The notes under the pieces were generated by a model. The model searched no databases and had not been told where the DNA came from. It was given only the letters and a program-made list of their open reading frames with translations. The translations under genes and the position numbers were made by a program. DNA of 64,000 bases from Polyangium fumosum (GTDB taxonomy: Bacteria; Myxococcota_A; Polyangia; Polyangiales; Polyangiaceae): NCBI RefSeq assembly GCF_005144585.1, contig NZ_SSMQ01000025.1:62001-126000 (forward strand), read 5' to 3'. Numbering within the stretch: position 1 is the first letter of the stretch; each line of letters begins with the position of its first letter. Shown here piece by piece: positions 33,632 through 48,587 of this stretch.

Positions 33632-34222
33632 TCACCACACACGCTGCGGAATGTTGATCGAGTCGCCCGCCTGGAGGGGGACGTTGGGGATCGTGTTGTC
33701 GATGATGTCCTCGACGCTCACGGTGACGACACGTGTCTTGTCCCCGATCTGACGGCGGATCGTGACCCTGTCGCGGGCGGCCATCTGGTTGAAGCCGCCC
33801 GCGAGCGAGATCGCGCGGAGCAACGTCATGCCGGGCTCGAAGCGCAACGAGCCCGCGCGCTGCACCTCGCCGAGCACCTCGACGCGCTTGGAGTTGTACT
33901 CCTTCACGCTCACGCTCACGATCGGGTCGGTCAGGATCTCGCCCTCGATGAGCCGCTTGCGCACGGCCTCGGCGATCTGCTGCGGCTCGAGCCCCCCGAC
34001 CTTGAGGCGCTTGATGTAGGGCAGATCGACGGTGCCGTCGGGCGCGACCGTGAACGTCGTGGGCAGGTTGTCCTCGCGCACGATGCGCATCTCGAACACG
34101 TCGCCCGCGCCCACGGTCTCGTTGCTCACGGGGGCTGGCAGATCTGCGGGGCGTGGACGCCCGCCGCAGGCGACGAACGCGGCGCCGAGCGCGAGCGTCG
34201 CGAGGAGGTCGCGCCTCCGCAT
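33632..34222 (-). CDS. Short OPX protein (Wza-like polysaccharide export)
   Basis: 196 residues from the ATG at 34222, which overlaps the stop of the barrel gene (TGATG). Signal sequence with MRRRDLL at the start and a possible lipobox ending FVAC (Cys19). The mature part is the Poly_export (PES) domain, NETVGAGDVFEMRIVRE...VDLPYIKRLKVGGLEPQQIAEAVRKRL, followed by a single SLBB-like domain (VEVLGEVQRAGSLRFEPGMTLLRAISLAGG). It ends there: the C-terminal helix that forms the outer-membrane pore in E. coli Wza is missing. OPX proteins of this length are known in Myxococcus to work with a separate barrel, and the coupled upstream gene encodes one. Confidence 0.85.
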   Translation of the reverse strand: MRRRDLLATLALGAAFVACGGRPRPADLPAPVSNETVGAGDVFEMRIVREDNLPTTFTVAPDGTVDLPYIKRLKVGGLEPQQIAEAVRKRLIEGEILTDPIVSVSVKEYNSKRVEVLGEVQRAGSLRFEPGMTLLRAISLAGGFNQMAARDRVTIRRQIGDKTRVVTVSVEDIIDNTIPNVPLQAGDSINIPQRVW

Positions 34223-35658
34223 CACATGAGCCAGCGGGCGCCCAGGTAGGCCTCGAACTGCTGCCACTGGAGCTTGTCCTCGCCGATGCCGGGGATGGTG
34301 AGAGAGTTGTCGCTGATGCGCGAGTTGTAGTGCAGCGTCGTGTTGATGCCGAACGCGTCCTTGAAGCGATACTCGGCGAAGCCCGAGGCGTCGATGCGGA
34401 CGTCGGTCCAGGGGTTCTCCTGGATGCTCGGCGTGTTGATCGTCGGGTTGACGAGCGCGCCCACGCCGACGTCGACGATCACGACGAAACGGCCGCCGAA
34501 GAAATACGTGAGCTTCAGGTAGCCGCGATCGCGCTCGAAGTACGAGCCGATGTACGAGTCGTAGAAGTCACGCGTGAAGCCGAGCGAGACGGACGAGAGC
34601 GTCGTGCTCGCGGCTTGTGGATCGACGCTCGGGTTCGGCGTGAGGAAGTAACGGAGCTCGGCCTGGCCGATGAGGCTGTCGAAGTCCTGCACGGTCTCGG
34701 CTGTCTCGGTGGAGCTCGGGTCGTAGAAGCTCGCGCCCCAGCCGGCCATGATCAGCGCGCCGAAGTTTTTCGTGATGAGGCCGTTGTAGCCGAGCTGCAC
34801 GCGGAGCGGTGTCGAGCCCGTCTTCTCGCCTGCGTCGAGGTACTGAACGATGCCGATGCGGGCGTCGTAGAGGAGCGCGGAGCGCGGCAGGAAGCGCCAG
34901 CGGCCTCGCGTCTGGAAGGTGTGGTGGATGTTCGTCAGGCCGGAGAAACGGCCCGATTCGAAGACCGTGCCGGCGAAGTTGTAGCCGAGGCGCCAGTCGA
35001 GCAGGCCGCTGCCCGGGTTCCAGACGAGCTCGGCCCCCGCGGTCGGCGTGAAGCGGTTGTAGCTCTCGGAAAAATCGTCGCGGATTACGCCTTCCTGCGT
35101 GGGCTGGATAAGGCGCCCGACGCTCGCGTAGAGCGAGCCCGACCAGGGGCGCGTGGGCAGGATGTTGAGGCGCATGTCGAACAGGCCGCTGAAGTTGCGC
35201 TGCTGCCACATGCGCTCCTTGCCCTCGGCGGGGCCGGAGACCGGGAAAAACTCGTTGTAGGTGACCGAGAGACCGCCGGAGAACTCGGCCGTGGGCGGGG
35301 CCTGCGAGGCGCCGCCGGCCTTGCGTTGCGGTCCGAGGGTCGAGAACGAGAACGACGGCGTCACGCGCAGGCGCATCGCGCCCACGGGCTCGCCCGCCGC
35401 GTCGCCCTCGCTCGCACGCAGGAAGAAGTTCGAGTCGTAGCCGAACTCGAGGGCGACGCCCGGGTGCAGCTCGTAGTCGCCGACGCGGTAGCCCGGGCCC
35501 ACGGTGAAGCGGCGATCGGCGAGCCAGGGTTGGTCCTGCCCTGCCGCCGTCGTGGGCGCGAGGGTCGCGAGGGCGAGTGCTGCAGCCAGGGGCTTGGGGC
35601 GTAGGACGCCGGAGGCGATCCGTAGCCCCAAACGTTGAACGAGGCCGCGCTTCTTCAT
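34222..35658 (-). CDS. Outer-membrane beta-barrel, candidate partner of the OPX protein
   Basis: 478 residues from the ATG at 35658 (a longer frame begins at 35691). Signal peptide (KKRGLVQRLGLRIASGVLRPKPLAAALALATLAP..., cut near AAG). The body has repeated amphipathic strands with Tyr/Trp/Phe girdles, for example RDRGYLKLTYFFGGRFVVIVDVGVG, and ends in YLGARWLM. Coupled to the OPX gene (TGATG), so both products are made together. Two readings: a Wzp-type barrel of a composite OPX/barrel translocon for polysaccharide, which I favour; or a GltH-like barrel, since in Myxococcus gltH follows gltG and a GltG-like gene lies just upstream here. Confidence 0.75.
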   Translation of the reverse strand: MKKRGLVQRLGLRIASGVLRPKPLAAALALATLAPTTAAGQDQPWLADRRFTVGPGYRVGDYELHPGVALEFGYDSNFFLRASEGDAAGEPVGAMRLRVTPSFSFSTLGPQRKAGGASQAPPTAEFSGGLSVTYNEFFPVSGPAEGKERMWQQRNFSGLFDMRLNILPTRPWSGSLYASVGRLIQPTQEGVIRDDFSESYNRFTPTAGAELVWNPGSGLLDWRLGYNFAGTVFESGRFSGLTNIHHTFQTRGRWRFLPRSALLYDARIGIVQYLDAGEKTGSTPLRVQLGYNGLITKNFGALIMAGWGASFYDPSSTETAETVQDFDSLIGQAELRYFLTPNPSVDPQAASTTLSSVSLGFTRDFYDSYIGSYFERDRGYLKLTYFFGGRFVVIVDVGVGALVNPTINTPSIQENPWTDVRIDASGFAEYRFKDAFGINTTLHYNSRISDNSLTIPGIGEDKLQWQQFEAYLGARWLM

Positions 35659-35695: not shown

Positions 35696-36274
35696 TCACT
35701 TGATCACGCTCGCAGAGGGCGGCGGCTCCACGATGACGACGACAGGCGGGTAAAAGGCCGGATCGTCGGGGATGCCGGGATCGATCTGCGTGACGGTCGA
35801 CGTCTCGCCGAGGATGTCGGCGTCTTTCCCGATGCACTGGTTCGCCTCGGCCGTGATCTGCTCGACGCGCTGCCGGAGGACGCCGAGGATCGTGAACTCG
35901 TGGGACGACAGATCCGCGTCGTCGCGCTTCACCGCGAGATCGAGCGCCTGCCTGCGCTCACGCGCGCTGCGCAAGGTCACGTCGATCTGGTTGAGTTTGT
36001 CGTTCAGGCAGAGCGTCTTCACGACGTCGCGCTGCGCCCGCGCCTCTTCGAGCAGACGCCGCACGACGCTGCGCGCGCTTTCCATGCGCCCGATGTACGT
36101 ATCCGTCTCCTGGAGCTGCTGCGCCGGCGTCAGCGTGACCTGACGCTGAAGGCCCGCGTTCGTGTCAGGCGGCGCGGGCGGCGTGCCTTGCGCCTGCGCA
36201 GACGCGATGCCGGCCCCGACGAGCAGCGAAAGCGCGCAAAGCGCGCCGAAGCCGAGCATCCGTTCTCGCTGCAT
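35696..36274 (-). CDS. Periplasmic coiled-coil protein
   Basis: 192 residues from the ATG at 36274, with GGAGG upstream (longer in-frame sequence is unlike protein and lies across the promoter). Signal peptide (LCALSLLVGAGIASA, cut near AQAQ). The body is one long helical region, about 55-150, with heptad spacing (ETDTYIGRMESARSVVRRLLEEARAQRDVVK), and two Cys. A conserved-looking C-terminal tail ends FYPPVVVIVEPPP. First gene of a likely operon with the barrel (37 bases) and the OPX protein. It may act as a periplasmic adaptor for export. Family not recognised. Confidence 0.65.
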   Translation of the reverse strand: MQRERMLGFGALCALSLLVGAGIASAQAQGTPPAPPDTNAGLQRQVTLTPAQQLQETDTYIGRMESARSVVRRLLEEARAQRDVVKTLCLNDKLNQIDVTLRSARERRQALDLAVKRDDADLSSHEFTILGVLRQRVEQITAEANQCIGKDADILGETSTVTQIDPGIPDDPAFYPPVVVIVEPPPSASVIK

Positions 36275-36304: not shown

Positions 36305-36334
36305 ACTATAGAAGCGGCCGAGCGCACCTGTCAA
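36305..36334 (-). promoter_or_regulatory. Near-consensus sigma70 promoter of the coiled-coil/barrel/OPX operon
   Basis: On the minus strand, TTGACA (36334-36329), an 18-base spacer and TATAGT (36310-36305). It is the best promoter in the window. Transcription would begin about 25 bases before the ATG at 36274, which supports that start and separates this unit from the Glt-like block upstream. Confidence 0.65.
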
Positions 36335-36471: not shown

Positions 36472-37899
36472 TCACTGGCTGACGAAGGAGACGGGGATGA
36501 CGACCGTCGCGCCGCCGCCCTCGGGGGGCGAGAACTGCGCGCTCTGCACGCGCGCGACGACGCACGAGACGACCTCGCCCGAGAGGCCACCGCCGCCCGA
36601 GGGCGACGCGGAGAGGACCTCGCCGTTCGGGCCGATCTTCGCGGTGATGCGCACCGAGCCCTTCATCGTCGGGTCGGCCTGCAGGCCGCGGTTGTAACAA
36701 CGCCGGAAGCCCGCGGCCATGCCGGCCACGACGGACGATGCGTTCGCGACATTGCCGCCGGAGACCGCTGCGCCGCCGACGTTCGCGCTGCCCGTCGGAC
36801 CCTTGACCGTCTTCGCCGCGCCTTGTGCGCTCGACGCGGCCGCCGCCTGTGTGTCGCCGATGTTCGCGAGCCCGCCGCCGCCGGCCGCGCCGGGGCGCAC
36901 GGTGCCGCCGCCGGCCGCGCCGAGGTTCAAGCCCGCGATGCCGCCGAGGCCCGCGCCCGCGCCCGAGGCCGCCGCGTTGTCGAGCAGGCCGAGCGGGACG
37001 TCGCCGCGATCGAGGACGCCGGCCGTCGCGTTGCCCGCGGCGTTCAGGGCGCCGAGCATCTGCATGTCGAGCTGGTTCAGCTCGTTGGCGATCGCCGAGG
37101 CGCGCGTGTCGCTGATCTTGCCGCCCGCGCCCTTCGCCGCGGACGCGCCCGCCGAAGGCTTGGGCGCTTCGGCCGCCGCGGTCGAAGCCTGCGTCGGCTG
37201 ATCGTTCGTCTCCTTCGGCTGCTCGACCGGCGGCGGCGGGGGCAAGCTCCGCACGGTCTCGAGGATCTGCGCGACGTCCACCTCGTCGTTGACGAGCGGA
37301 TCCATCCAGTCCGAGTAGATGGTGCCGACCGCGCCGAAGTGCAGGAGGAACGAGAACGCCGCGATGATCGTGGTGGTCCAGTCGATCGACTGGACGAAGC
37401 CGCCGCGCACCGACGCGGGGAGCTGCGGCTTCGGCTGAGGCGGCGGCGCGGCGACGAACTGGAAGAGGAAGGTCGTGTCGCCGACGACGATCTTGCCGCG
37501 GGCGTCGTCGCTGAGCGGCACCTGGAAGGCCTGCACCTGGCCGAGGCTGACCTTCTTGGCCTGCGATTTCAGCGAGGCGAGGTCACTCACGCCGGTCTTC
37601 AGCGCGATGCGGCCGGCCATGCCATCGAGGAAGTTCAGCGCGTATTCGTTGCCGACGAGCTCGAAGAGCCGGAAGCTCGGCGGCACGTTCTTGTTCGGCG
37701 TGACGAACATGCTCTTTTCGCTGGGGCCGATGGTGACGTGGGTGCGCTGCTTGATGATGCGCTCCTCGATCACCTTGCCGCCCTGGACGACCCCGACGCG
37801 CAGGACCTTCGGGCCCGTCGCCTGGTTCATGGCCCGCATGACTGCGGTCATCTGACCGGGCTTCGTCCCGGACCCCGTCTGCGTCGTCGTCTGCGTCAT
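36472..37899 (-). CDS. GltG/PglI-like protein: FHA-like, membrane span, AgmX/PglI C-terminus
   Basis: 475 residues. N-terminal cytoplasmic FHA-like domain (about 30-155, VTIGPSEKS then LNFLDGMAGRIAL), one membrane span (about 177-197), a Pro-rich periplasmic stretch, a Gly/Ala/Asn-rich linker, and a C-terminal AgmX/PglI domain (about 395-475): FRRCYNRGLQADPTMKGSVRITAKIGPNGEVLSA, TonB-C-like in its fold pattern, with one Cys in CYNRG and another in SCVVA. This is the layout of GltG and GltJ of the Myxococcus gliding complex, where TonB-like periplasmic arms transmit force or contact to the outer membrane. Last gene of the minus-strand envelope block. It is the strongest indicator that the block is Glt-related. 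Confidence 0.85.
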   Translation of the reverse strand: MTQTTTQTGSGTKPGQMTAVMRAMNQATGPKVLRVGVVQGGKVIEERIIKQRTHVTIGPSEKSMFVTPNKNVPPSFRLFELVGNEYALNFLDGMAGRIALKTGVSDLASLKSQAKKVSLGQVQAFQVPLSDDARGKIVVGDTTFLFQFVAAPPPQPKPQLPASVRGGFVQSIDWTTTIIAAFSFLLHFGAVGTIYSDWMDPLVNDEVDVAQILETVRSLPPPPPVEQPKETNDQPTQASTAAAEAPKPSAGASAAKGAGGKISDTRASAIANELNQLDMQMLGALNAAGNATAGVLDRGDVPLGLLDNAAASGAGAGLGGIAGLNLGAAGGGTVRPGAAGGGGLANIGDTQAAAASSAQGAAKTVKGPTGSANVGGAAVSGGNVANASSVVAGMAAGFRRCYNRGLQADPTMKGSVRITAKIGPNGEVLSASPSGGGGLSGEVVSCVVARVQSAQFSPPEGGGATVVIPVSFVSQ

Positions 37900-37996
37900 G
37901 AAAAGGGCCTCCGCCTGGGGCGATGAAGACGCCCAGCCGACACGGAAGTTTCATCGGAAGGGTACACAACGGCGAGAGATCGGTAAAGCGCGCGGC

Positions 37997-38578
37997 TCAC
38001 GCGCCGCGTCTTCGGCCTGGACGAGGCGCTCGCGGAGGGGCGCCCGGGGCGAGCCGGTCGCGGAGGCCGAGGGTGTCGACGAGGGCGTCGACGGCCTTGC
38101 GCTGGTCGTCGGCGAGCTCGCGGGCGCGGCGACCGAGGGCGGCGCAGGTGGCCGCGGCGCCGAGCCCGAGGACGAGGAGCGCGGGCACGGCGAAGGAGAT
38201 CGAGCCGGGGCGGAGGAGGACGGTGATCACCGCGAGGAAGAGGCCTCCGTAGGCCGCGATGCGCGTGGCAGCGCCGGGCCAGGATGCGGTCGCGTCGAGG
38301 GCGAGCTCGATCTCGGCGAGGAGCTCGTCGACGGCGGCGCCGCGGGCGTCTTCGGAGGCGTCTTCGGAGGCCTCGATCAACGCGGCGAGGCGGCGCTCGG
38401 CGCTGCCCTCCGGCGCACGCGCGGCGAGGGCCGCAGCGCGTTCGTTCACGGGGACGCGCTTCAACGCGACGAGGAGCTCGGCGGCTTTGCCGGAGGTCGC
38501 GCGGCGAACGCGCGCGAGGTGCGCCCACGCGAGGAGCACGGAGGCGAACGTGATGAGGACGCCGAGCGCGAGAATCAA
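37997..38578 (-). CDS. Membrane protein with three predicted spans
   Basis: 193 residues with a hydrophobic start (ILALGVLITFASVLLAWA), a long helical middle (about 30-95, Arg/Ala/Glu-rich) and two further spans (about 106-122 and 127-148) before a basic tail. Start is TTG with no clear ribosome site; a GTG at residue 15 is the alternative. The span-long helical cytoplasmic loop-two span layout recalls TolQ/ExbB/MotA proteins, and its position beside a GltG-like gene would suit an energising subunit. But no motif was recognised and the length is short, so this is inference. Confidence 0.5.
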   Translation of the reverse strand: MILALGVLITFASVLLAWAHLARVRRATSGKAAELLVALKRVPVNERAAALAARAPEGSAERRLAALIEASEDASEDARGAAVDELLAEIELALDATASWPGAATRIAAYGGLFLAVITVLLRPGSISFAVPALLVLGLGAAATCAALGRRARELADDQRKAVDALVDTLGLRDRLAPGAPPRAPRPGRRRGA

Positions 38579-38600
38579 GCGTCGAGGCGAGATCGTTGGA

Positions 38601-38852
38601 TCAGAAAGGATCCTTGAAGATGGCCTCCTCGATGCGATCGAGGAAAGGCTGCCGGAGCTCCGCGAGCGTCAGCTTCGGCTGGATGCGGCTCACGTCGACG
38701 GCGGCGATCGGCTTCTCGATGCGGCCGGTGATCGTGACCTCCGACAGCGTGATCGCGCCGCGAGGTTTTTTGTCCTTTTCCTGCGCCTCGGCGGTTCGTA
38801 CCGACGAACCGAGGACCACGAGCCCGGCGAGGATCAGCATCGCTCTCCGCAT
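38601..38852 (-). CDS. Small periplasmic protein
   Basis: 83 residues. Signal peptide (MRRAMLILAGLVVLGSSVRT, cut near AEA, about residue 22), then a mature domain of about 60 residues containing ITLSEVTITGRIEKPIAAVDVSRI and a closing LAELRQPFLDRIEEAIFKDPF. Between the TPR lipoprotein and the membrane protein, in the position that gltF holds in the Myxococcus G1 cluster (a small periplasmic protein between gltE and gltG). Sequence identity with GltF is not claimed. Confidence 0.6.
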   Translation of the reverse strand: MRRAMLILAGLVVLGSSVRTAEAQEKDKKPRGAITLSEVTITGRIEKPIAAVDVSRIQPKLTLAELRQPFLDRIEEAIFKDPF

Positions 38853-38904
38853 GCGCGACCTCCGTTCCACAAGATGCCTCGTCTCGCGCGCGCCGTCCAT
38901 GTGC

Positions 38905-40509
38905 CTAGAAGCCCGGGGGCGGCGTGGCGAACGGCGCGACGATGGTGCTGGTCGGCGTGGGCGCTGGCGCTGGCGCGGGAGGCGGCGGCTCGGGCGTGGG
39001 CGCTGGCGCCGCGGACGGCGGCGGCGCTGGCGCGGCAGAGCTGTCCGAAGGCGCAGGCGCAGGCGGCGGGGCCGCGGAAGTCGCGGGCGGCGGGCCTGCG
39101 GGCGGCGGGCCCGGCGGGACCGCTGCGGCGTCCGGGGCGCCCCCATCCTCGGCGCTCGGCGTGCTCGGGAGGGGTGCGACGGGCGCGGGCGCCTCGGCGG
39201 CGGACGCAGCGGCGAGCTCGCCTTCCTTGAGCTTTGCGCGCTGCAGGAGCTCCTCGGAGTCGTCGCGCTCTCCCTTGCGACGGAGCTCCTGGTACTTCTT
39301 CAGCTCGGCGATCGCCTCGGCGACCTGCTGCTTGGCCGACATGCCGGGGACGCTCGGCGCGAAGAGGTACAAAAGGCCGAGGTCGTAGTGGACCTGCGGC
39401 ATCGATGCGTCCCGCGCGAGCACCCACTCGAACTCGCGCTTCGCGTCACCGTACCGGCCGAGCAAGCGGTACGTGTCGCCGAGCGCGAGGTGCGCGGGGA
39501 GGTTGTCGCCGTCGTAGCGGACCGCGCCTTCGAGAAGCGGGAGCGCCTCCTGGCCGTTGCCGGCTTCGAGCAGCATCGCGGCGAGCTGCACGCGCGCCTC
39601 GACGAGATCGGGCCTGCGCTGCACGGCGCGACGGAAGTTGTCCATGGCGCCCGCGCGCTGGGATTGCTCGCGCAGGATGAGGCCTCGCAGAAGCAACGCC
39701 TCGGGGTTCTCCTTGTCGCGCGGCGGGTTGTCCGCGCCGAACCCGTCGAGGATCGCCTGCAGCGCGTAGAGCGCGAGATCGAGCCTGCGGTTGCGGTAAT
39801 GATCGCGGGCGATCACGACCATCGCGGGCCGGTAATCCGGGTTGATCTTGAGCGCCTCCTGGGCGAGGCGTTGCGCCGATCCGGTGTCCTTCTGCAGGCT
39901 CTTCACCTCGGCGAGCGTGGCCGTGACGGCGGCCGATCGCGGCATGATCGCGCGTTTTTCCGTGAGGAGACGTTCGGCCTCGCCGAGGTTGCCCTTCCGC
40001 GCGAGCAGCATCGCGTAGGCGATGATCGCGGGCTCGTAGTCGGGCGTGATGGAGAGGGCCTTCTGGTAGCTCGCCGCGGCCTCGGGCTCGCGCAAGCGCT
40101 CCTGCACGGCGCCGAGCGAGTAGTGCGCGTGGGGGGCGCGCGCGTCGGCCTGGATGACCTGCTGGAAGAGGCCCTTCGCCGCCGTGAGATCCCCCGCGGC
40201 AAACGCGGCCATGCCTTGCTGGTAAGGCCCTGCCGCGGCGGGCGGGAGCGGCGCGGGCGGAGGCGCCGGGGGCGGGGTCGTGAGCGTCGGCGGCGCGCTC
40301 GGCGTGAGGCTCGGCGTCGGGCTCATGCCCACGATCGGCGCGGGCTGGCCCCACGGGTTCATCCCGTTCGGCCCATTCGGATACATGGCCGAAGGTTGCG
40401 GCGGCGTCTGCGGCTTCTGCTGCGAGGTCGTCTCCTCGCAGGAGGCCGCGAGGAGCGGCACGAGCGCGCATGCGAGAGCCGCGAAAACCAGAGGAGGCGA
40501 ACGCTTCAT
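38905..40509 (-). CDS. TPR lipoprotein, GltE/AglT-like by context
   Basis: 534 residues. Lipoprotein signal ending in LLAASC (Cys24). A Pro-rich linker (about 30-90) leads into tandem tetratricopeptide repeats from about 97 to 400 (for example GMAAFAAGDLTAAKGLFQQVIQ, HYSLGAVQERLREPEAAASYQKAL, RLLTEKRAIMPRSAAVTATL). The tail is extremely Pro/Ala-rich and ends in GF. TPR lipoproteins scaffold assemblies at the outer membrane. Its ATG overlaps the stop of the giant TPR gene (ATGA). In Myxococcus gltE (aglT) likewise encodes a TPR lipoprotein directly after gltD. Confidence 0.8.
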   Translation of the reverse strand: MKRSPPLVFAALACALVPLLAASCEETTSQQKPQTPPQPSAMYPNGPNGMNPWGQPAPIVGMSPTPSLTPSAPPTLTTPPPAPPPAPLPPAAAGPYQQGMAAFAAGDLTAAKGLFQQVIQADARAPHAHYSLGAVQERLREPEAAASYQKALSITPDYEPAIIAYAMLLARKGNLGEAERLLTEKRAIMPRSAAVTATLAEVKSLQKDTGSAQRLAQEALKINPDYRPAMVVIARDHYRNRRLDLALYALQAILDGFGADNPPRDKENPEALLLRGLILREQSQRAGAMDNFRRAVQRRPDLVEARVQLAAMLLEAGNGQEALPLLEGAVRYDGDNLPAHLALGDTYRLLGRYGDAKREFEWVLARDASMPQVHYDLGLLYLFAPSVPGMSAKQQVAEAIAELKKYQELRRKGERDDSEELLQRAKLKEGELAAASAAEAPAPVAPLPSTPSAEDGGAPDAAAVPPGPPPAGPPPATSAAPPPAPAPSDSSAAPAPPPSAAPAPTPEPPPPAPAPAPTPTSTIVAPFATPPPGF

Positions 40510-43500
40510 GGCAACGTCACCGGGAGCGGCGCGGGCAGACCGTCGGGCTGCAGCGCGGGCGCCATGCCGGGCCGCGTGCGCAGGAACATGCCGTCCTGGT
40601 ACTGGAAGGGCTGTCCCGTCTCGGGATCGATGATCCCCTGGCTCATGTCGCGGATCTTCGCGTCGCCGAGGATGTCGGTGAAGAACGCGAGCCTTTGAAT
40701 CGCGTGGTCGACCTCGGGGTTTCGCACGTTCCACGCGCGCGCATACACCACGGCCTGCACGTAGAACTTGATCATGGCGCGGTCGGCGTCGTTGAGGAGC
40801 CGCTCGCGCGCCTCGCGCCACTGCTCGCGGCGCTTCTGGCGGATGGCGTCCGCGGTCTCTTGCAGGTCCTCGCGATCGCTCGTCTCTGCGAGCTTGAGGA
40901 GCTTCTCCTCGCGGTCGGAGTAGAGCTTCAGGCCCGGCGGGCGCGTGTTGTAGAGGCCCGTGCGGCACGAGTCGTAGAGCGAGCCTTGCCGCGCGAACGA
41001 CGCGACGGACAAGGCGCGCGACTCGTACGTCTTGATCACGGACTGCAGGTCGTTGAAGTACGTGTCGCCCGCCTTCTTGAGGTCGTCGGAGTACGTCTTG
41101 ATGACCTTGTCGATGACGCCGGCGTAGCGGTGGTGGCCGGCGTCGTAGTCCCAGGACTGCCGGAGCTTGTCGTCGATCACGCCGTACGCGCACTCGGCGG
41201 CCATGTCGGCCTGCATCGTGCCAAGCGCCTTCTTGTTGTCCATCGCGGCGAACGCCTTGAACTTGTCGAAGGCGCCGATGGTGTTGCGGCACCACTCGAA
41301 CGCCTTCGGATCCGAGGCCGCCTTGCGCATCTTCGCCGCGTGGAAGGCCGCCTGGACGAGGAACGGCGTGGCCGCCGGCGTGAGGCGGTTCATCTCGTAG
41401 TAGTTCTCCATCGCGTCCATCGCCTTGACGCGCGCGGCCCTGTTCGCGCCCTCGTCGAGGCCCTTCTCGTCCCACGCCTTGAGGTCGGCCGACGCGACGA
41501 TGTAGTCGATCTCGGCCTTCTGCTCGACCGGGGCCTCGAGGTTCAGGAACGCATTGCGCGAGGCGATCATGCGATCACGCTCGCCCACGTTCGCGTAAAG
41601 GAGGACCGCGCCCCGGGCCGCCTCGCGCCGCGCGGGCTTTTCGAAGCGGCCGTTGCGCGAGATCGTGTCGTACGTCTCGGCGGCGGCGCGGTAGTTGAAG
41701 AAGAGCACGTACGCCGCGCTGAGCGCGTCGTAGGCCTGCTTCAGGTACCCCACGCGCTCGGCGTAGCGCTTCGGATCCGCGGGCTTCGGGGGCTTGCTGG
41801 CCTCGTCGCCCTTCTCCAGCTTCGAGAGGTTCGCCTCGCTCCCGTACTCCTTGATGAAGAGCGCGTACATCTCGATGGCCTGGTCGTAGTCGCCGACCTG
41901 CTTGTAGCAGTACGCGCCGTTCATCGCGGCCTCGGGCGCCTCGTCCCGCGCCGGGGCTTTTTCCAGCGCCACGCGGTAGAGCGCCGCCGCCTCGCGCCAC
42001 GCCTGCACGCGCTCCGGCCCGTCGGGCATCTTCTCGGCCTTCTCGAACTTCGCCGCGGCGTCGACGTAATAGCCGCGCGAGATCGTGGGCTGGGCGATGC
42101 CCGTCTCCTTGAGCTTCTGCTCCTCGCTGATGGCGCAGCTCTTCGTCATCGAGGCCTCGGCGAGCGCGCGCGAGCGCGGCACGTCGTTCTCGAGGTTCGC
42201 CATCGTCGTGAGCTTCTCCCACGCGAGGTAGCCGAACGGCGTCTTGCCGCACTGCTCGGCGTAGATCGGCTCGAGCCTGCGTCGCGCCTCGGCGAAGTTG
42301 CCGTACAGGAAGAAGAACTCCGCGGACTGGTAGGCGTAGAGATCGCTGTTCTTCTGATCCTGGTTCGTCTGCGGATCCCGCGTCGAGAGATCACTCGCCG
42401 GAGGCACGCGCTGGATGTACTCGTCGCGCGCCGCGACCGCGTCCTTGAGGACCTTCGGCAGCTCCTCGACGGCGACCTTCTGCTTGTCGTTCTCCGTGAC
42501 GATCTTGAGCCCCGTGCGCTGCTCGATCCCCTCTTGCCCGCCCGTGCGCTTGTAGAGCTTGTACTGGTCGAGCAGCGCTTGGTACGCGGTGTCGACGACC
42601 ATGAACGCGGCGGGCTGCAGGTGCTTGTCGTCCTCGTTCGAGTCGCGGACGTCGACGGCGGTGCGCCGCGCGGTCTCGATCTCGTCGACCGTCGGTGAGC
42701 GATCCATCGCCACCTGGATCACGAGCACCATGTGGTTCGCGTCCGCGAGCCAGTAGCGGCTGTCGTAAGCGTCGGGCGCGTTTTCGTCTTCCTGCAGCAC
42801 GCCCTGCCAGCCGAGCGCGGCCATGCGGTACTCGGAGAGCGCGCGTTCGAAGAGCTTGGTGCGCGTCTCCTGCTCGCCGCTCTGGATCGCCGCGTTCACG
42901 AGCGCGCTGCCCGCGTTCGTGTGATCGGCCGCGGCGCGACGCAGGCCGCCACGCACGAGGCGCTCGGCGGTCTGGATGGCCTCCGGATCGTCCTTGTTCG
43001 CCTCGACCCACGGCGTCTTGCCGACGTAGTTCGCGAGCTTCGTGCGCGCGTCGAGGGCCTTCGCCGCGTTCTCCGCCCGCTCGGCCGTCCCCTCGCGCGA
43101 CTGCCCGGTGAGCGTGTCGTAGATGTCCGCGATCTGCGCCTGCATGACCGGCGCGTCGCGGTGCATCGGCCACTTCTTGAGGATGAGCTCCGAGACCTCG
43201 ATCGTGTTCCGGTACTGGTTCAGCTCCTTGAACTCGACCGCGAGCGCTTTGTAGACCTCGACGGTCCACTTGCGATCCTGCGGGATGAGCGCCGCGTTCT
43301 GCACGCGATCGATCGCGATGCGCATCTTCTGCTCGCGGATCCGCGGGTCCTGCTCGAGGTCGAGGATGTCGCTGCGCGGGACGAAGGGCTCATCCGCGGC
43401 GGGCCCCGTGAAGTCGAGGAACGTGAGCGCGCCGGCGATGTACGTGTACGACTCGCCGCGGAAATCCGTGCCCGGATCCCCCGTGAGTTTCTCCTGTTCG

Positions 43501-44858
43501 TCGGTGTACTTGAGCAGCTCGACGAACTGCCGGACGCTCGTCTCGTAGCGGAGCTGCTTGAAGTACGTCCACGCGAGCTTGTACATCGCGACGCCGTAGA
43601 CGGGCGGCTTCTTGTACTGGAGCGATCGCGTGTACGCGACCTCGGCGCGGTTCAGGCTGAAGGGCCCGCCGCCCGGATCGATCTCGTTGAAGTGGTAGTC
43701 GCCGATGAGCCACCAGACCTCGGCGAGGTACCGCGGCTCCGCGCCCTCCGCGACCTTCTGCGGGATCGGCTTGCAGGCGTCGGGGTACGGATTGACGAAG
43801 ACGAGCTCGTCCTCGATCGCCGGCGCTTCCGGCTCGGGCTCGGGCTCCTTCCCTTTGCCCTTGGCGTTCGTCTTCTTCTTGGGCGGCGGCTGCGCGGCCT
43901 TGCGTTTCGCGGCCTCGCCGATGGGGATCGGGTGCCGCGACTCCCAGCCGAGCCAGTAGTCGCGATCGTGATCCTGCGGGAGCTTGCCGACCGTGTCCCG
44001 CGTCGGATCCTTCGGATCCGTAGGAACGGGGTACGGGTAGCGGTCGTGGCAGACGAAGGACCGGAAGACCTGCTGCGCCTCGAAGATCCGCGCCGAGTCG
44101 TTCAACGCGTGGCCGAGGTAGTAGTAGACGCCCGCGAGCTCCTTGTACTGCGGGAACTCGCGGATGATGCGCTTGTAGAGGGCGATCGCGGGCCGGAGGC
44201 CGATCGCGAGATCGTCGGCGAGGTCGGTGTCCTCGCGGGCGCGCTCCTCGTAGAGCGCCGCGAGGCGGAACATCGCCGTGGGCGTGCTCTCGGGGTGCGC
44301 GTTCCTGCCGCTGTACGTCTCGACGAACTTTTCGAGGCGGCGGATCGCCTCCTCGCGCGCCGACTTCAGGTCCTTCTGCTCGACGTCGATCTCGCGGTCG
44401 AGGGCGGCGATGACACGACGCCTGCGCTCTTCATAGTGCTGCTGGATGATCCGCGTGATCGACGAGCGGTAGTCGCGCGCGGCCTGCTCGTACGCCGCGG
44501 CCTCTTTCTCGAGCTCCGCGAGCACCGCGACCTGCTCGGGCGTGGGAGGCGGCGGCGGAGGCGCCTGCACGCGCGGCTTGAACGCAGGCGTGGGCGGCGG
44601 GATGGGCGGCGCGCTCGCGGACGGCGCCGGAGCCGTGGTCGTGGGCGCTGCACTCGGAGGCGCCGTGGGGATCACGCCGGGAGGCGCCGTGGGCGCTGCC
44701 GTCGGTGGTGCGGTCGGCGGCGCCGTCGGCGCTGCCGTCGGCGGAAAGGGCTGCGGCTGCGACGCGGCGCTGCCGGCGACGCACGTCGCGACGAGCAGCG
44801 CGAGGATCGACGACGCGCCGCGTCCCGACCGCGACGAGGAACGACGAAGCACGCTCAT
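40506..44858 (-). CDS. Giant periplasmic TPR protein, GltD/AgmU-like by context
   Basis: 1450 residues. Signal peptide (SSILALLVATCVAGSAA, cut near AAS), then a Pro/Ala/Thr linker of repeated APTAPP units (about 36-105). The rest is helical, with many TPR-like pairs (e.g. EYSKAIRR-type FRLAALYEERAREDTD, YLGHALNDSARIFEAQQVF, AYCYKQVGDYDQAIEMYALFIKEYG) and charged coiled-coil stretches (about 110-160, RDYRSSITRIIQQHYEERRRR). There is also a Lys/Glu/Pro-rich insertion (about 325-355). Very long secreted TPR proteins of this kind act as periplasmic scaffolds. It is coupled to both neighbours by ATGA overlaps, so three TPR proteins are made in series. Confidence 0.85.
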   Translation of the reverse strand: MSVLRRSSSRSGRGASSILALLVATCVAGSAASQPQPFPPTAAPTAPPTAPPTAAPTAPPGVIPTAPPSAAPTTTAPAPSASAPPIPPPTPAFKPRVQAPPPPPPTPEQVAVLAELEKEAAAYEQAARDYRSSITRIIQQHYEERRRRVIAALDREIDVEQKDLKSAREEAIRRLEKFVETYSGRNAHPESTPTAMFRLAALYEERAREDTDLADDLAIGLRPAIALYKRIIREFPQYKELAGVYYYLGHALNDSARIFEAQQVFRSFVCHDRYPYPVPTDPKDPTRDTVGKLPQDHDRDYWLGWESRHPIPIGEAAKRKAAQPPPKKKTNAKGKGKEPEPEPEAPAIEDELVFVNPYPDACKPIPQKVAEGAEPRYLAEVWWLIGDYHFNEIDPGGGPFSLNRAEVAYTRSLQYKKPPVYGVAMYKLAWTYFKQLRYETSVRQFVELLKYTDEQEKLTGDPGTDFRGESYTYIAGALTFLDFTGPAADEPFVPRSDILDLEQDPRIREQKMRIAIDRVQNAALIPQDRKWTVEVYKALAVEFKELNQYRNTIEVSELILKKWPMHRDAPVMQAQIADIYDTLTGQSREGTAERAENAAKALDARTKLANYVGKTPWVEANKDDPEAIQTAERLVRGGLRRAAADHTNAGSALVNAAIQSGEQETRTKLFERALSEYRMAALGWQGVLQEDENAPDAYDSRYWLADANHMVLVIQVAMDRSPTVDEIETARRTAVDVRDSNEDDKHLQPAAFMVVDTAYQALLDQYKLYKRTGGQEGIEQRTGLKIVTENDKQKVAVEELPKVLKDAVAARDEYIQRVPPASDLSTRDPQTNQDQKNSDLYAYQSAEFFFLYGNFAEARRRLEPIYAEQCGKTPFGYLAWEKLTTMANLENDVPRSRALAEASMTKSCAISEEQKLKETGIAQPTISRGYYVDAAAKFEKAEKMPDGPERVQAWREAAALYRVALEKAPARDEAPEAAMNGAYCYKQVGDYDQAIEMYALFIKEYGSEANLSKLEKGDEASKPPKPADPKRYAERVGYLKQAYDALSAAYVLFFNYRAAAETYDTISRNGRFEKPARREAARGAVLLYANVGERDRMIASRNAFLNLEAPVEQKAEIDYIVASADLKAWDEKGLDEGANRAARVKAMDAMENYYEMNRLTPAATPFLVQAAFHAAKMRKAASDPKAFEWCRNTIGAFDKFKAFAAMDNKKALGTMQADMAAECAYGVIDDKLRQSWDYDAGHHRYAGVIDKVIKTYSDDLKKAGDTYFNDLQSVIKTYESRALSVASFARQGSLYDSCRTGLYNTRPPGLKLYSDREEKLLKLAETSDREDLQETADAIRQKRREQWREARERLLNDADRAMIKFYVQAVVYARAWNVRNPEVDHAIQRLAFFTDILGDAKIRDMSQGIIDPETGQPFQYQDGMFLRTRPGMAPALQPDGLPAPLPVTLP

Positions 44859-47263
44859 TTGCCCTCCGTCCCGGGCGCGGCGCTGTCGTCGAGGACCTCG
44901 TCGAGCTCCTCCCGCAAGAGCTTCTCCTCGCGCGCCCGCTCGACGCGCAAGCTGCGCACGCGGGTCATCTGCTCCTCGCGCACCTCCCACGCCTCCTCGG
45001 TGATGCCCACATCCGCGCGCAGGACGATGTTCCGCAGCCGGTCGCGCACGAGGCCGAAGTTCCGCATCGCCACCTCGCCCACGACGCCACGCGCCTCCTT
45101 GTCGAGCCGCTCGAGCTCCACCTCGTACCCCACCACCGCGGCCGTCTCGCGCGCCAGGATCGCCCGCACGTCCGTCGTCCTCCGCGCGACCTCACGCTCG
45201 AGCTCGGAGAGCGCGGCGAAGACCTTCGCGTCCGTCTCGTCGCCCTTCTGCAGGAGCGGCGCGACACGCTTCGCGTACGTGGCGAGCGACGCGCCCCCCT
45301 GCCCCGCCATCGCGAGCTGGACCTCCCGCACGATCGCCTCGCGGTACGCCTGCCGCACCTGCGCATCATCGATGAAGCGCTGATCGCCGAAGCCGACCTG
45401 CATCTTGCCGGCGCCCACGAGCTTACGCAGATCCGTGATCTGCTTGCGGTACACCGCGAGATCACGCTCGTGCGCGGCGAGCTCCTGCTCGAACCGCGCG
45501 ACCGCCGCCGGATCCCGCACGACGCCCGCCTGCGGCGCCTCGCGCAGCATGCGCCGCAGGCCGTTCACCTGCGCCTGCAGCGAGTCCACTTCGAGCGTCA
45601 TGCGCTGGACCGACTGCGACGCGCCGTTCCACTGCTTCAGCGCCTGCCCCTCGCGCTCCTGGAAATCCGAGTCGTTGACGGGGATCATCCCGAGCCGCTT
45701 CTCCAGCGAGCGGCGACGCGCGCGCACCTGCCCGATCTCGCCGGAGAGCGACGAGGACTCGACCTCGTCCATGCCCTGCCCGATCGAGAGCCGCGCGATG
45801 CCCACGCGGTTGATGAGCCCGAGCGCCTTCTCCTCGCCCGCCTTGAGCTCGGGAAATGCGCGGACGCGGTTCGTCGAGGCCACGACCGCGTTCAGCTTCT
45901 CGATGAGATCGTTCGATTGCTGGATGAGCTCGCGGCACTGCGCGATGCCCTCGATCACGGCGAACGCGGCCGGGCCGTCCTCCGCGTCGCGCGCCCACTG
46001 GATCGCCAGCGTGGGCAGGCCGGAGCTCGAGTCGAGGACGTCGAGCTGCTCCTGGCTCAGCTTGTCGTAGTAGACGGCCGGATCGCTGGTCGCGCCGAGG
46101 AACGCATCGACACGCGCGCGCATCGGATCGTAGTTCGCGCGGACGCCCTCGTAGACCTTGAGCGATTTTTCGAACTGGCCCGCGCGCAGCATGAGGTCCG
46201 CGCGGAGCAACGAGCCATCCGCGATGTTCTGGCTGTTCGGATCCGCGACGGAGAGGACCTCGAGGGCCCGTTGCGCGCGCTCGACGTCGCCGAGGCGGAC
46301 GTACACCCAGCCGAGCTCGTAGAGCATCGTCCCGAACTCCGGCGACGATCGGTCGATGTGGTTGTACGCATCCACGGCCTGCGCCCACTGATCCGACTCG
46401 TAGAAGAGCCTTCCTATCGCGAGCCACGCCATGTCGATCACCCGCTCGTGCTCCTTCGAGTCGGGCGCGAGCTGCGTGACCTTGCGGAACTGATCGATCG
46501 CCACGACGTAACGGCTGCGCGGCGCGCGCGGCGGCACCTCGCCCTCGGCGAGCGGGACCGGCGGCGGCGTCGCCTCCTTCATGGCCACGACGCCGAGCAG
46601 GTAGCCGGCCTGATGCGCGTACTCGCTCTTCGGATCGACCGACGCGAGCGCCGCCTTCGCGCCCGCCCAGTCCTTCTTCACGACGAGGCCTTTGCCGCGT
46701 GCGTACGAAATTCCGCTCGTCACGGCCGCGGGCGGGAGGCGGTTCATCGCGGAGAAGACGTCGTCGAGGTGCCGGTAGTCCTTCGTCCGCAGCGCGATGT
46801 CGACGAGCCGCTCGAGCGCCTTGCCCTGGTAGGTCAAGAAGCGCGGCTCCTGCACGCGATCGGTGATCCTGAAGTAGACGCGCCGCGCCGAGAGGTACTG
46901 CCGCGACTGGAAGTACGTCTCGCCGAGGAGCGAGAGCGCGTCGGGGTACGCGGTCGGGTGGTCGGGGTACTTCTCGAGGATCTCGTTCAGCAGCGTCGCC
47001 GCGCGATCCCAGTCCCTCGAACCCACGAGCAGCACGGCGTCGGCGATGCGCTGCGCCGGCGTGCGCTCGCGGCCCTTCGACTTCTGGATCGCGTCCTCGA
47101 TCGCGCGCAGGCCATTGCCGGCGATCGTGATCTGCTGCGTGGCGGTCGAGATCGCCTGCTCGGCGTCGATCGCGTGCGCGAAGCTCGGCACGAGGGTGGC
47201 GCAGGCCGCGAGGAGGCCCGCGAGGAGCGCCTTCCGCGTGCGGGAACCGCGTGTGCTCTTCAT
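44855..47263 (-). CDS. Periplasmic TPR/coiled-coil protein, GltC-like by context
   Basis: 802 residues. Signal peptide (LLAGLLAACATLVPSFAHA). The N-terminal half (about 60-430) holds TPR-type repeats (WDRAATLLNEILEKYP, YLSARRVYFRITDRV, AVDAYNHIDRSSPEFGTMLYELGWVYVRLGDVERAQ). The C-terminal half is coiled coil (about 500-640 and 690-800) with SLEKRLGMIPV, KQWNGASQSVQRMTLEVDSLQAQV and an acidic end DEVLDDSAAPGTEGK. Its last bases overlap the start of the giant TPR gene. In Myxococcus GltC is a TPR periplasmic protein of similar size, but it lies in another cluster. Alternative: a general tol-type scaffold. Confidence 0.8.
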   Translation of the reverse strand: MKSTRGSRTRKALLAGLLAACATLVPSFAHAIDAEQAISTATQQITIAGNGLRAIEDAIQKSKGRERTPAQRIADAVLLVGSRDWDRAATLLNEILEKYPDHPTAYPDALSLLGETYFQSRQYLSARRVYFRITDRVQEPRFLTYQGKALERLVDIALRTKDYRHLDDVFSAMNRLPPAAVTSGISYARGKGLVVKKDWAGAKAALASVDPKSEYAHQAGYLLGVVAMKEATPPPVPLAEGEVPPRAPRSRYVVAIDQFRKVTQLAPDSKEHERVIDMAWLAIGRLFYESDQWAQAVDAYNHIDRSSPEFGTMLYELGWVYVRLGDVERAQRALEVLSVADPNSQNIADGSLLRADLMLRAGQFEKSLKVYEGVRANYDPMRARVDAFLGATSDPAVYYDKLSQEQLDVLDSSSGLPTLAIQWARDAEDGPAAFAVIEGIAQCRELIQQSNDLIEKLNAVVASTNRVRAFPELKAGEEKALGLINRVGIARLSIGQGMDEVESSSLSGEIGQVRARRRSLEKRLGMIPVNDSDFQEREGQALKQWNGASQSVQRMTLEVDSLQAQVNGLRRMLREAPQAGVVRDPAAVARFEQELAAHERDLAVYRKQITDLRKLVGAGKMQVGFGDQRFIDDAQVRQAYREAIVREVQLAMAGQGGASLATYAKRVAPLLQKGDETDAKVFAALSELEREVARRTTDVRAILARETAAVVGYEVELERLDKEARGVVGEVAMRNFGLVRDRLRNIVLRADVGITEEAWEVREEQMTRVRSLRVERAREEKLLREELDEVLDDSAAPGTEGK

Positions 47264-47285
47264 GCGTGTTCCTTCGGGAGATCGC

Positions 47286-48209
47286 TCACTTGGCGACGCC
47301 CTGCGGCGCCGGCGCGCCCGCAGGAGCGTTCGGATCCGAGAGCCCTTGCGTGACCTTCTCGACGAACCGCACCGCCGGGCGCTCCTCGATCGGCGTGGTC
47401 ACGCCGCCCTTCTCGAACGAGACGATCTGAAGCGTCATCGTCTTGCCTTCGAGCGCGGTGAACGAGTGGTTCGAGCGGACCTCGAGCCGATAACCGCGCA
47501 TGTACGAGAAGACGCCGTAGCCGTTGCCCTGCAGGTTCACGAGGACCTGCACGGTGTGATCACCGGGCGGGATCGAGCCGTTGAAGATCGGGATCTCGCC
47601 GGCCTCGGCGATCGCGCCCGTCTGATCGGTCTTGTTGTACTGGACGGCGCCGTCGAGGACGACGAGCAGGCGCGTGATCTTGAAGGCGCCCGAGAGCTCG
47701 TTCATGTACTTGAGGTTCGCGCGGGAGCCGGCGCCGCCGCTCGACAGGATCGTGTCGCTGAGCAGCGAGAGACGCGTGTGGCTGCGACGGATCTGCTCTT
47801 TCAGCTCGTCGATGCGCTGTTCGAGATCACGCAGGCGCACGGCGTACGTCTGTCCGTCCATGCCCGGCGGCGCCGCGGGCTGCGCTCCGGGGGCCGGCTG
47901 CGCGCCAGGCATGCCCGTGGGAGGCACGGGTTGCATGCCGGGCTGCGTCGGCGGCTGCGGCTGCATGCCCGGCTGTGGCTGCATGCCGGGTTGCATCGGC
48001 TGCGGCTGCATGCCGGGCTGCGTCGTTTGCGGCTGCATGCCGGGTTGCGTCGGCGCGGCGGCGGGCGGGGTTTGGCCCGTCGGAACGGCCTGCAACAAGC
48101 CGGGTCCGGCCGCCGGCGGAGGCGCCGTGGGGGCCTGAGCAAACGCCGGCGCCACGGTCAGCCAGGTTGCCGCAAAGGTCACGGCGAGCGTCTTCGGGAG
48201 CAATCGCAT
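47286..48209 (-). CDS. Secreted protein with GMQPQ repeats and a C-terminal domain
   Basis: 307 residues from the ATG at 48209; an ATG five codons upstream is possible. Signal peptide (ROOT: LLPKTLAVTFAATWLTVAPAFA, cut near AQA). A low-complexity zone (about 45-110) contains repeated QPGMQPQ units. A short coiled coil (about 128-160, RLRDLEQRIDELKEQIRRSHTRLSLL) precedes a beta-rich domain (about 165-280) with LLVVLDGAVQYNKTD, IPPGDHTVQVLVNLQGNGYG and FTALEGKTMTLQI. First gene of the minus-strand block, 22 bases before the TPR gene. Unknown family; possibly a periplasmic or outer-membrane associated assembly factor. Confidence 0.65.
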   Translation of the reverse strand: MRLLPKTLAVTFAATWLTVAPAFAQAPTAPPPAAGPGLLQAVPTGQTPPAAAPTQPGMQPQTTQPGMQPQPMQPGMQPQPGMQPQPPTQPGMQPVPPTGMPGAQPAPGAQPAAPPGMDGQTYAVRLRDLEQRIDELKEQIRRSHTRLSLLSDTILSSGGAGSRANLKYMNELSGAFKITRLLVVLDGAVQYNKTDQTGAIAEAGEIPIFNGSIPPGDHTVQVLVNLQGNGYGVFSYMRGYRLEVRSNHSFTALEGKTMTLQIVSFEKGGVTTPIEERPAVRFVEKVTQGLSDPNAPAGAPAPQGVAK

Positions 48210-48587
48210 GAAGACCAACCCCATCGTCGAAGGAAGGCGGAAGGACGCGCTGTCGCCCGGCCATGCTTGCCGGCCTTCGCCAAGTGTACGTTCCGGGAGC
48301 GCGCCGATGCAACCGAGGACCCCGCGCGACACGGGAACGTGACGTGCCGTGAATTTGCTGGCGCTTCGTGTCCGCCCCGGCGCGAGGTCTTTCCGAGCGC
48401 CCTCGCCATCCAAACTTCGCGGCTCCGCCCTGGTCCCGATCCGGTAAGGTGGCGTCGTGCAGCGACGCCCCCATCCGATCAGAACTTCGGGCCCCGTCGC
48501 GCGTCCCATGGACCCGTTCAACGGTCGTCACGACCCCCTTTCGCCTGCATCCGCCCCCGCGGACGCGCAGGAAACGAGGAGGTGACG
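48210..48587. other. Gene-free 378-base divergent gap
   Basis: Separates the minus-strand envelope block from the plus-strand sigma factor gene, so it must carry promoters for both. No pair close to the TTGAC/TATAGT type seen elsewhere was found, which would fit control by an alternative sigma factor. No hairpin or small gene was recognised. Confidence 0.45.

Follow-up and report, generated by a model that had tools for sequence, protein, structure and literature searches.

A Glt-type gene row linked to an exporter in Polyangium fumosum: a probable role in polysaccharide secretion and not in motility

Among the closest known relatives of the gene row presented here are the Glt gliding complex (G1/G2) and the Nfs sporulation complex (G3) of Myxococcus, in which AglR is thought to pull through contact with GltG and NfsG. 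The biosurfactant polysaccharide (BPS) of Myxococcus xanthus has its own export pair, wzpB/wzaB; a BPS linkage is also reported for Sandaracinus. Wartel et al. in 2013 reportedly speculated that Glt core complexes without a role in motility handle sugar polymers. According to a published account (PMC3858216), Agl-Nfs moves the spore-coat polymer after its export by ExoA, nfs mutants still export, and the Wza homologue is encoded apart, in the exo locus. The G4 cluster has been interrupted by a polar mutation in MXAN_1922, for which no motility defect was reported (PMC3169522), and a wzaB mutant has the phenotype of other mutants in the BPS pathway (PMC7310880). Numbering from MXAN_1922 to MXAN_1915 requires eight genes from the giant TPR protein to the OPX protein (PMC3169522; PMC9603273), with a porin of 421 aa encoded by wzpB (MXAN_1916) and with wzaB as MXAN_1915 (PMC9603273). 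Our literature search found no paper joining the G4 cluster to wzpB/wzaB.

Here we describe a row of ten genes from Polyangium fumosum (assembly GCF_005144585.1, contig NZ_SSMQ01000025.1), found in a window of 64,000 nt, which is the whole stretch of DNA analysed (positions 62,001-126,000 of the forward strand). In the reading that we prefer, and to which we give a probability of roughly two in three, the row codes for a trans-envelope scaffold of the G4 type within the Glt/Nfs superfamily, one that serves polysaccharide export in place of gliding. The row begins with rep312 and continues with GltC-, GltD-, GltE- and GltF-like genes, a membrane protein and a GltG-like gene, followed by p246, an 18-stranded porin and a Wza-like OPX protein (Table 1). 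A preliminary description had listed the first seven as minus-strand genes, and these are indeed co-directional from 48224 to 36472, with gaps that are tiny or overlapping (rep312 has an alternative start at 48209); the row is longer than that description had it, however, and runs on past the GltG-like gene through p246, porin and OPX down to 33632. Terminator-like consensus matches such as the one that follows the OPX gene number 13 in the region against 7.0 expected, and neighbouring genes were annotated by codon bias, which is rough. In the 34 loci whose flanks suffice on either side, the genes found keep their order without exception, which is more than chance. Relatives of rep312 occur in 83 of the 96 loci with enough upstream sequence, and across 96 loci the GltC-like gene is present in 92, the GltD-like in 95, the GltE-like in 94 and the GltF-like in 69.

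Table 1. Features of the gene row in window coordinates
Feature	Position	Strand	Basis or remark
rep312, secreted; Pro/Gln repeats at the N-terminus, C-terminal domain conserved; operon gene 1	47286..48224	-	
GltC-like TPR/coiled-coil protein, 802 aa	44855..47263	-	NCBIfam GltC; signal peptide judged by eye
GltD-like giant TPR protein, 1450 aa	40506..44858	-	Position and orthologue model; signal peptide judged by eye
GltE-like TPR lipoprotein, 534 aa	38905..40509	-	NCBIfam GltE
GltF-like small secreted protein, 83 aa	38601..38852	-	Position; by-eye likeness
Putative decayed TolQ/ExbB-like stator subunit, 193 aa	37997..38578	-	Other families have TolQ-ExbD-ExbD in this slot
GltG-like transducer with a single TM span, a Pro-rich linker and a C-terminal AgmX/PglI domain	36472..37899	-	NCBIfam GltG, myxo_SS_tail
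Sigma-70-like promoter before p246, TTGACA-18-TATAGT	36305..36334	-	Same place in many relatives
p246, secreted, coiled-coil-like, 192 aa from likely start	35696..36274	-	No family found
Wzp-type porin of the outer membrane, predicted to have 18 long strands	34222..35658	-	
Short OPX (Wza-like) protein, Poly_export + SLBB	33632..34222	-	
Terminator-like hairpin and T-run, 3' of OPX gene	33541..33557	-	Consensus match only

The order C-D-E-F-G had been taken as that of a Glt-like complex, and both the conserved order and the profile searches uphold this, as kinship and at a distance. Among NCBIfam models, GltE is the best match of the GltE-like protein (90 bits against an equivalog cut-off of 225) and GltG that of the GltG-like protein (81 against 650), while GltC (56 against 450) comes second for the GltC-like protein, behind the generic ybgF model; all three scores lie far under the cut-offs. 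The giant TPR protein matched no GltD model in the NCBIfam search, and it joins the homologues of GltC, GltE and GltG in this one row by position and by a weak model match: a model made from its orthologues scored 144 and 72 bits on the genes that occupy the GltD and NfsD positions in a Myxococcus-like genome and 27 bits on the GltD-position gene of the own genome. Relatives of the GltF-like protein resemble, by eye only, the NfsF-position protein of the Myxococcus-like genome. Of the FHA-span-AgmX/PglI architecture previously assigned to the GltG-like protein, the C-terminal domain stood (myxo_SS_tail, 51.8 bits against its own cut-off of 40) and the FHA part was not confirmed, as no Pfam family matches at E<=0.1 and the NCBIfam GltG match begins at model position 192.

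The row is not the closest Glt machine of its genome, since a cluster about 40 kb away scores 305 bits for GltG and 265 for GltC, values that are also below the equivalog cut-offs. The GltG cut-off was passed in both Myxococcus-like genomes searched (1094 and 1083 bits) and was reached in none of 235 sampled genomes of the phylum. In a quick, unrooted tree the window-type GltG stands apart from Glt/Nfs GltG with a branch support of 95 and falls together with one from M. xanthus AM003; the row is a separate conserved lineage within the Glt/Nfs superfamily. It had further been proposed that paired barrels at 2.4-4.4 kb (2351-3403 and 3422-4399) might be of the GltA/B type. This was rejected, because none of the ten cluster proteins matches the GltA/GltB-type model TIGR04565 and phmmer found no relative of the barrels in the operon loci read; they do not belong to the row, and one of them has a phmmer match (2.5e-9) to a barrel encoded next to the Nfs cluster.

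The slot before GltG exists in three states. Across 122 distinct loci, with twelve operon loci without a readable slot left out, a complete TolQ-ExbD-ExbD motor is found in 50, a TolQ-like gene without ExbD in 31, the window among them, and neither TolQ nor ExbD in 40 operon slots and in the own-genome Glt cluster. Co-occurrence with an Agl-type motor, which had been suggested for examination, is seen within the operon in those 50 loci and is reduced in the window to a 193-aa TolQ-like remnant with no ExbD. All 50 complete motors have both motor threonines (T/T, in the second and third transmembrane helices); the remnants keep them in one and in none of 31 (replaced in 30 and 31), and the window protein has A and L at these positions. 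In the alignments, first ExbD copies have Asn at the position of the membrane aspartate in 38 of 50 and Asp in 6, and second copies have Asp in 46 of 50; the pair is asymmetric, with usually one copy alone keeping the aspartate.

A slot profile of five distant orthologues aligned with MotA/TolQ/ExbB (hhalign 95.9%, E 5.5e-9, score 65, 183 columns), as did one of 20 members including the window's (93%, E 3.4e-7, 180 columns), against about 1% for the reversed controls and 63% with a score of 38 for the best of 30 block shuffles. Taken singly, just 2 of 20 slot proteins match Pfam MotA_ExbB (best 1.2e-4). The protein model aligns with ExbB/TolQ at Z 9.6 (rmsd 5.4, 183 aligned), a range (Z under 13) in which helical bundles can match unspecifically, and its Foldseek E-values are weak, the best being 0.048. 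Within the genus of the window, purifying selection acts on the slot gene (dN/dS 0.18-0.28). The profile match with its controls and the dN/dS values argue against the gene being a pseudogene or coding for a random membrane protein, and the 193-aa protein is, as judged from its profile, a homologue of TolQ and most likely what is left of the operon motor. It is the gene formerly called simply a membrane protein. The word ancestral, which had also been used, holds for the lineage only, because the complete motor is kept in operon loci of at least twelve families other than the window's, and the copy in the window appears derived, its motor having decayed, a direction of change that we infer, the tree being unrooted.

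Past GltG, 105 loci could be read for at least 5 kb downstream, and these contain p246 in 94, the porin in 99 and OPX in 85, which agrees with the export pair of the preliminary description; OPX was not found in the other 20, where models made from window relatives may miss distant copies. The porin model has 18 long strands, and the PgaA barrel ranks third in the structure comparison. The OPX protein ends after SLBB, the missing Wza_C helix being judged from length and last residues only. With no transmembrane aspartate by eye and no model match, p246 was ruled out as an ExbD. Polysaccharide genes adjoin the operon in the four relatives looked at. In the own genome, PF02706 gave no Wzc-type co-polymerase and PF13807 gave one, so the idea of a genome without a polysaccharide co-polymerase was rejected; this Wzc-like gene, the only one detected, is on another contig in a sugar-gene region, of which about 35 kb were read with no OPX match; its place on another contig counts against the export reading.

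Three readings compete with ours. In one, the row spreads an already exported polymer over the surface and stays outside the export step itself, as Agl-Nfs does in acting after ExoA in mutants that still export (PMC3858216); the two gene sets are paralogous, but the Nfs Wza homologue is in the separate exo locus (PMC3858216) whereas the window OPX is in the same row, and we hold this reading to be doubtful. Still less likely, in our estimate, is that the Glt-like genes and the exporter form two independent machines that happen to be encoded side by side, the former being a generic envelope-stabilising (Tol-like) complex. It would account for the near-consensus promoter of p246-porin-OPX, which recurs in 51 of 107 loci with 10 or more matches out of 12 (24 of 4,740 control segments) and leaves co-regulation with the Glt-like genes uncertain, because the export genes often have a promoter of their own. 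It would also suit four loci with several kb between GltG and p246 (L164, L165, L173, L203) and five, among the 20 in which OPX was not found, with neither p246, porin nor OPX found beside GltG (L080, L104, L123, L180, L189). Because of these 20, and of OPX being found in 30 of 39 loci with a complete motor, the scaffold can probably exist without this exporter next door. Against two machines stand the linkage of porin and OPX to the row in most loci, including those without a motor (porin 29 of 31, OPX 23 of 31), and the window's porin stop, which overlaps the OPX start. A second Agl-Glt machine for gliding or surface motility is highly improbable: it would explain the homology and order of GltC-D-E-F-G and the Agl-type motor genes in the operons of other families, but the equivalog cut-offs are missed, ExbD and the motor threonines are gone here, the polar MXAN_1922 mutant is motile (PMC3169522), and the genome contains another cluster that is closer to Glt. 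The earlier suggestion of a non-motility form used for export is probably right.

In the scaffold reading, GltG in the inner membrane and GltC, GltD, GltE and GltF in the periplasm would span the envelope and serve an OPX/beta-barrel translocon. The exported polymer would be a polysaccharide of the Wzx/Wzy type that most likely corresponds to the biosurfactant polysaccharide of Myxococcus. Since many other families of the phylum carry TolQ-ExbD-ExbD in the operon, where proton flow would let it pull on GltG, the ancestor was probably a device that exported polysaccharide, or distributed it over the surface, with the help of a motor. The window's order lacks the ExbD pair, and its TolQ-like subunit is kept by selection although neither motor threonine is left; for these reasons the complex here probably serves the exporter as a docking scaffold without power, or else borrows a motor encoded elsewhere; the machine would thus be proton-driven by ancestry and de-energised in the window. 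Because the row is linked to an exporter in many relatives and its motor has decayed here, it suggests polysaccharide secretion rather than motility. Perhaps, and we put this forward tentatively, export by a proton-driven TolQ-ExbD-ExbD/GltC-G device with its OPX and porin was what the Agl-Glt family in Myxococcota did first and still does most widely, with gliding and spore-coat assembly as later re-uses and with several lineages, the window's included, uncoupling exporter from motor stepwise. The reading offers a concrete and testable candidate function for the G4 cluster, listed as of unknown function in 2011, would give a genomic home to wzaB, which has been described as an orphan gene, and suggests sugar-polymer handling as the job of non-motility Glt core complexes, while the complete, remnant and absent motors in like-ordered operons form a natural series in which the contribution of the proton motor could be tested.

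Compared with the known systems, the row probably corresponds to the G4 cluster of M. xanthus (MXAN_1922) running into wzpB/wzaB, in order, gene count and porin length, the locus tags being assigned from gene number and porin length in a relative and not from the DK1622 sequence: this Myxococcus-like genome has the order of the window from the GltC-like gene through OPX, with eight genes from giant TPR protein to OPX and a porin of 421 aa. No motor remnant occurs in the Myxococcaceae loci that were read, of which the single one covered in full has a cNMP-binding gene between GltG and p246; the window, by contrast, retains a decayed TolQ. The Glt and Nfs complexes have GltC, GltE and GltG homologous to those of the window, and the order C-D-E-F-G is shared by the own-genome Glt cluster and by the Nfs clusters; in a comparison that covered GltA to GltG, the window row differs from them in having no detectable FHA and no GltA/B-type barrel and in its attached exporter. 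All seven members of the Group B core complex (GltC, GltD, GltE and GltG with AglR, AglQ and AglS) have relatives in the operons of other Myxococcota families, which add a GltF-like protein, rep312, p246, porin and OPX, and of which the window has lost two motor genes. Finally, the window shares a short OPX and an adjacent 18-stranded barrel with the translocons of class 3 OPX proteins and 18-stranded porins (EpsY/EpsX, ExoA/ExoB, WzaB/WzpB), and differs from them in that its translocon is genetically joined to a Glt-like scaffold.

The window cluster is a conserved operon. The preliminary description had placed seven Glt-like genes here on the minus strand and joined them to export genes, and both features are present in the order claimed, with intergenic gaps of 22, -4, -4, 52, 22 and 97 bases along the row and three further genes continuing in the same direction. 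From this conserved linkage, we favor the reading, at odds of roughly two in three, that the cluster encodes a Glt-superfamily scaffold dedicated to polysaccharide export. The kinship proposed to Glt proteins was recovered by NCBIfam models, with GltE (90 bits) and GltG (81 bits) as the top matches of the 534-aa lipoprotein and the AgmX/PglI-tail protein, and GltC (56 bits) narrowly second to the generic ybgF model for the 802-aa protein, but all three fall far below their equivalog cut-offs. The FHA domain ascribed to the PglI-type protein was not detected in a domain search of the window's GltG-like protein.

Genes of the window cluster and other features located in this analysis (L, numbered locus; C, contig of the window's own genome, G000)
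Feature	Location	Strand	Length	Remark
Gene 1, rep312, secreted repeat protein	window, start of row 48224-36472	minus		
Gene 2, TPR/coiled-coil protein		minus	802 aa	GltC-like by NCBIfam
Gene 3, giant TPR protein		minus	1450 aa	
Gene 4, TPR lipoprotein		minus	534 aa	GltE-like by NCBIfam
Gene 5, secreted protein		minus	83 aa	
Gene 6, membrane protein		minus	193 aa	slot protein
Gene 7, TM protein, AgmX/PglI tail		minus		GltG-like by NCBIfam
Genes 8-10, p246, barrel protein, OPX protein	window, end 33632	minus		OPX: Poly_export and SLBB domains
Whole cluster	C118:95.6-110.2 kb			
Two consecutive beta-barrel genes	window 2351-4399			
Zinc-finger anti-sigma-like TPR protein and lipoprotein-like secreted protein	window 49233-52128	plus		point away from operon
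Second C-D-E-F-G cluster (L035)	C118:45803-56960			
Two divergent TolQ-ExbD-ExbD sets (L041)	C167:274257-278911			possible AglRQS and second motor
Cyclic-nucleotide-binding gene	L170:11374-11826; L165:12448-12924			between GltG and p246; L170 Myxococcus-like, L165 a relative
Very large open frame	L164:13014-17690; L165:12993-16802; L203:12779-18490		1269-1903 aa	ahead of p246
Wzc-like kinase	L149			operon flank
Wzy-like polymerases	L185, L195			operon flank
Sugar-nucleotide genes	L160, L185			operon flank

The GltG-like protein was matched in 38 of 39 close genomes, the window's own included (E<=1e-10), and, across the phylum, in 143 of the 235 genomes sampled (E<=1e-20), a search that by itself cannot separate operon copies from paralogues. 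Loci were therefore compared directly: 75 stretches at GltG matches, picked for long contigs and spread, and the best 80 of 181 named relatives, giving 133 counted loci after exclusion of ten same-contig repeats, the own-genome Glt and motor loci, and twelve other GltG loci, most of them second copies lacking the operon. A GltD-like gene was found in 95 of the 96 loci with sufficient upstream sequence. Downstream, the porin, p246 and OPX genes were present in 49, 45 and 44 of the 51 loci with at least 6 kb, and in 99, 94 and 85 of the 105 with at least 5 kb; OPX is thus missing in 20 of the 105, which slightly reduces the weight of the export reading, and none of the three was found beside GltG in five of them (L080, L104, L123, L180 and L189). 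The genes found kept their order in all 34 loci flanked on both sides. Twenty of these carry all eight core genes, and 12 of the other 14 have no rep312 or GltC-like match, the stretch ending there in ten.

In the window, the OPX start overlaps the porin stop. The barrel protein was modeled with 18 long strands (pLDDT 78.9), and its structural matches place the polysaccharide secretin PgaA third among assorted outer-membrane barrels, at modest TM-scores. Polysaccharide genes adjoin the operon in four relatives, picked from fifteen loci whose flanks were listed; in the window's own genome, the one Wzc-like gene detected sits on a different contig, accompanied by glycosyltransferases, a GT4 initiator and a deacetylase. 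Between GltG and p246 the window has a TTGACA-18-TATAGT promoter (11/12 consensus). Of 107 loci, 51 have a site of at least 10/12 at this position, compared with 24 of 4,740 control segments taken from those loci; because the loci are related, these counts are not independent. By motor state, the site is found in 7 of 34 loci with a complete motor, 23 of 29 with a remnant, and 21 of 44 others, a class that also covers loci with an unread slot. It is therefore likely that the operon comprises two transcription units, the clearest case being loci with a decayed motor.

What lies between the GltE-like gene and GltG, here called the slot, bears on the motor. The operons show a graded series of motor states. 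Of the 122 distinct slots, 50 contain a single TolQ gene with exactly two ExbD genes (1987-5473 bp), and 31, the window's included, a TolQ-like gene but no ExbD (907-2109 bp); the remaining 41, among them that of the own-genome Glt cluster, contain neither type. Complete motors were seen in at least twelve other families of the phylum, and also in named relatives, Lujinxingia vulgaris and a Bdellovibrionales genome among them.

By profile and model, the 193-aa membrane protein appears to be a motor leftover. Five distant TolQ-like slot proteins of the window's order matched TolQ profiles at 95.9% (E 5.5e-9, score 65, 183 columns) and all twenty slot proteins at 93% (E 3.4e-7, score 52), against 0.1-1.4% for reversed alignments and best scores of 38 (63%) and 35 (50%) from 30 block shuffles. 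Searched singly, 2 of the 20 matched Pfam MotA_ExbB, and the window's own protein was not reached by the TolQ model. An AlphaFold model with remnant proteins as sole input (mean pLDDT 71.8, pTM 0.45) had ExbB and TolQ as its top matches in the set of solved structures, the best Foldseek E being 0.048 and none below 0.001; VIA-align gave Z 9.6 (rmsd 5.4, 183 aligned), whereas helical proteins unrelated to these scored under Z 7. Two threonines, which we take to be the proton-path threonines of ExbB/TolQ, are each invariant in the 50 complete motors and present in 1 and 0 of the 31 remnants, which are hard to align. Despite this replacement, the slot gene shows purifying selection within the genus of the window, with dN/dS of 0.18-0.28 in four comparisons (GltG 0.12-0.21; OPX 0.19-0.37). 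In alignments of the complete motors, the membrane-aspartate site is Asn in 38 and Asp in 6 of 50 first ExbD proteins, and Asp in 46 of 50 second ones.

We infer the contacts, the energy coupling and the direction of change as follows. A GltG transducer would span the inner membrane, pulled by TolQ-ExbD-ExbD in the motor-bearing form, while GltC, GltD, GltE and GltF would bridge the periplasm to OPX and porin, through which the polymer would exit. The motor of the window's lineage seems to have lost the ability to conduct protons, and the retained TolQ-like subunit may hold GltG; alternatively, GltG may borrow a motor, for example from the two sets on C167.

That the window cluster is its genome's closest Glt machine is ruled out by the second cluster, which stops about 5 kb ahead of the window and scores 305 bits for GltG and 265 for GltC, likewise under equivalog cut-offs. 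In a quick, unrooted GltG tree of 69 rows, a branch with support 95 separates 56 window-type rows, including a Myxococcus xanthus copy, from 13 rows of Glt, Nfs, G5 and own-genome paralogues. Two contig pairs, C137/C141 (L036, L037) and C114/C116, show duplicated genes, with the same GltG and neighbors and the same OmpA score, so redundancy in the assembly is likely. Of the paired barrels, the first exceeds the TIGR04565 cut-off (87.5 bits) and is similar to one located beside Nfs genes in a Myxococcus-like genome.

M. xanthus has three additional GltD homologues according to Luciano et al. 2011 (PMC3169522), who describe G4 (MXAN_1922) as having no known function, its polar mutant moving normally. 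MXAN_1915, encoding the OPX protein WzaB, is described as an orphan (Islam et al. 2020, PMC7310880; Perez-Burgos et al. 2020, PMC7484181). It lies roughly 1 Mb away from the biosurfactant polysaccharide genes, and its mutant resembles other biosurfactant-pathway mutants in behavior (Islam et al. 2020, PMC7310880). Its partner porin is WzpB (MXAN_1916; Saidi et al. 2022, PMC9603273; Schwabe et al. 2022, PMC9601211), which ends at residue 421 (PMC9603273). Within the portions of open PMC papers searched, no paper tying a Glt-like cluster to WzaB was found. The record Comamonas sp. KCTC 72670 (L170, G262; 9.0 Mb), Myxococcus-like by content and with GltG at 1083 bits, carries a window-type operon with eight genes from a GltD homologue (1112 aa) to OPX and a porin of 421 aa; this gene count and porin length fit MXAN_1922-MXAN_1915. 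According to Wartel et al. 2013 (PMC3858216), AglRQS moves Nfs with a spore-coat polymer that is exported by a Wza homologue, AglR binds GltG and NfsG in two-hybrid assays, and Glt-type systems are suggested to carry sugar polymers.
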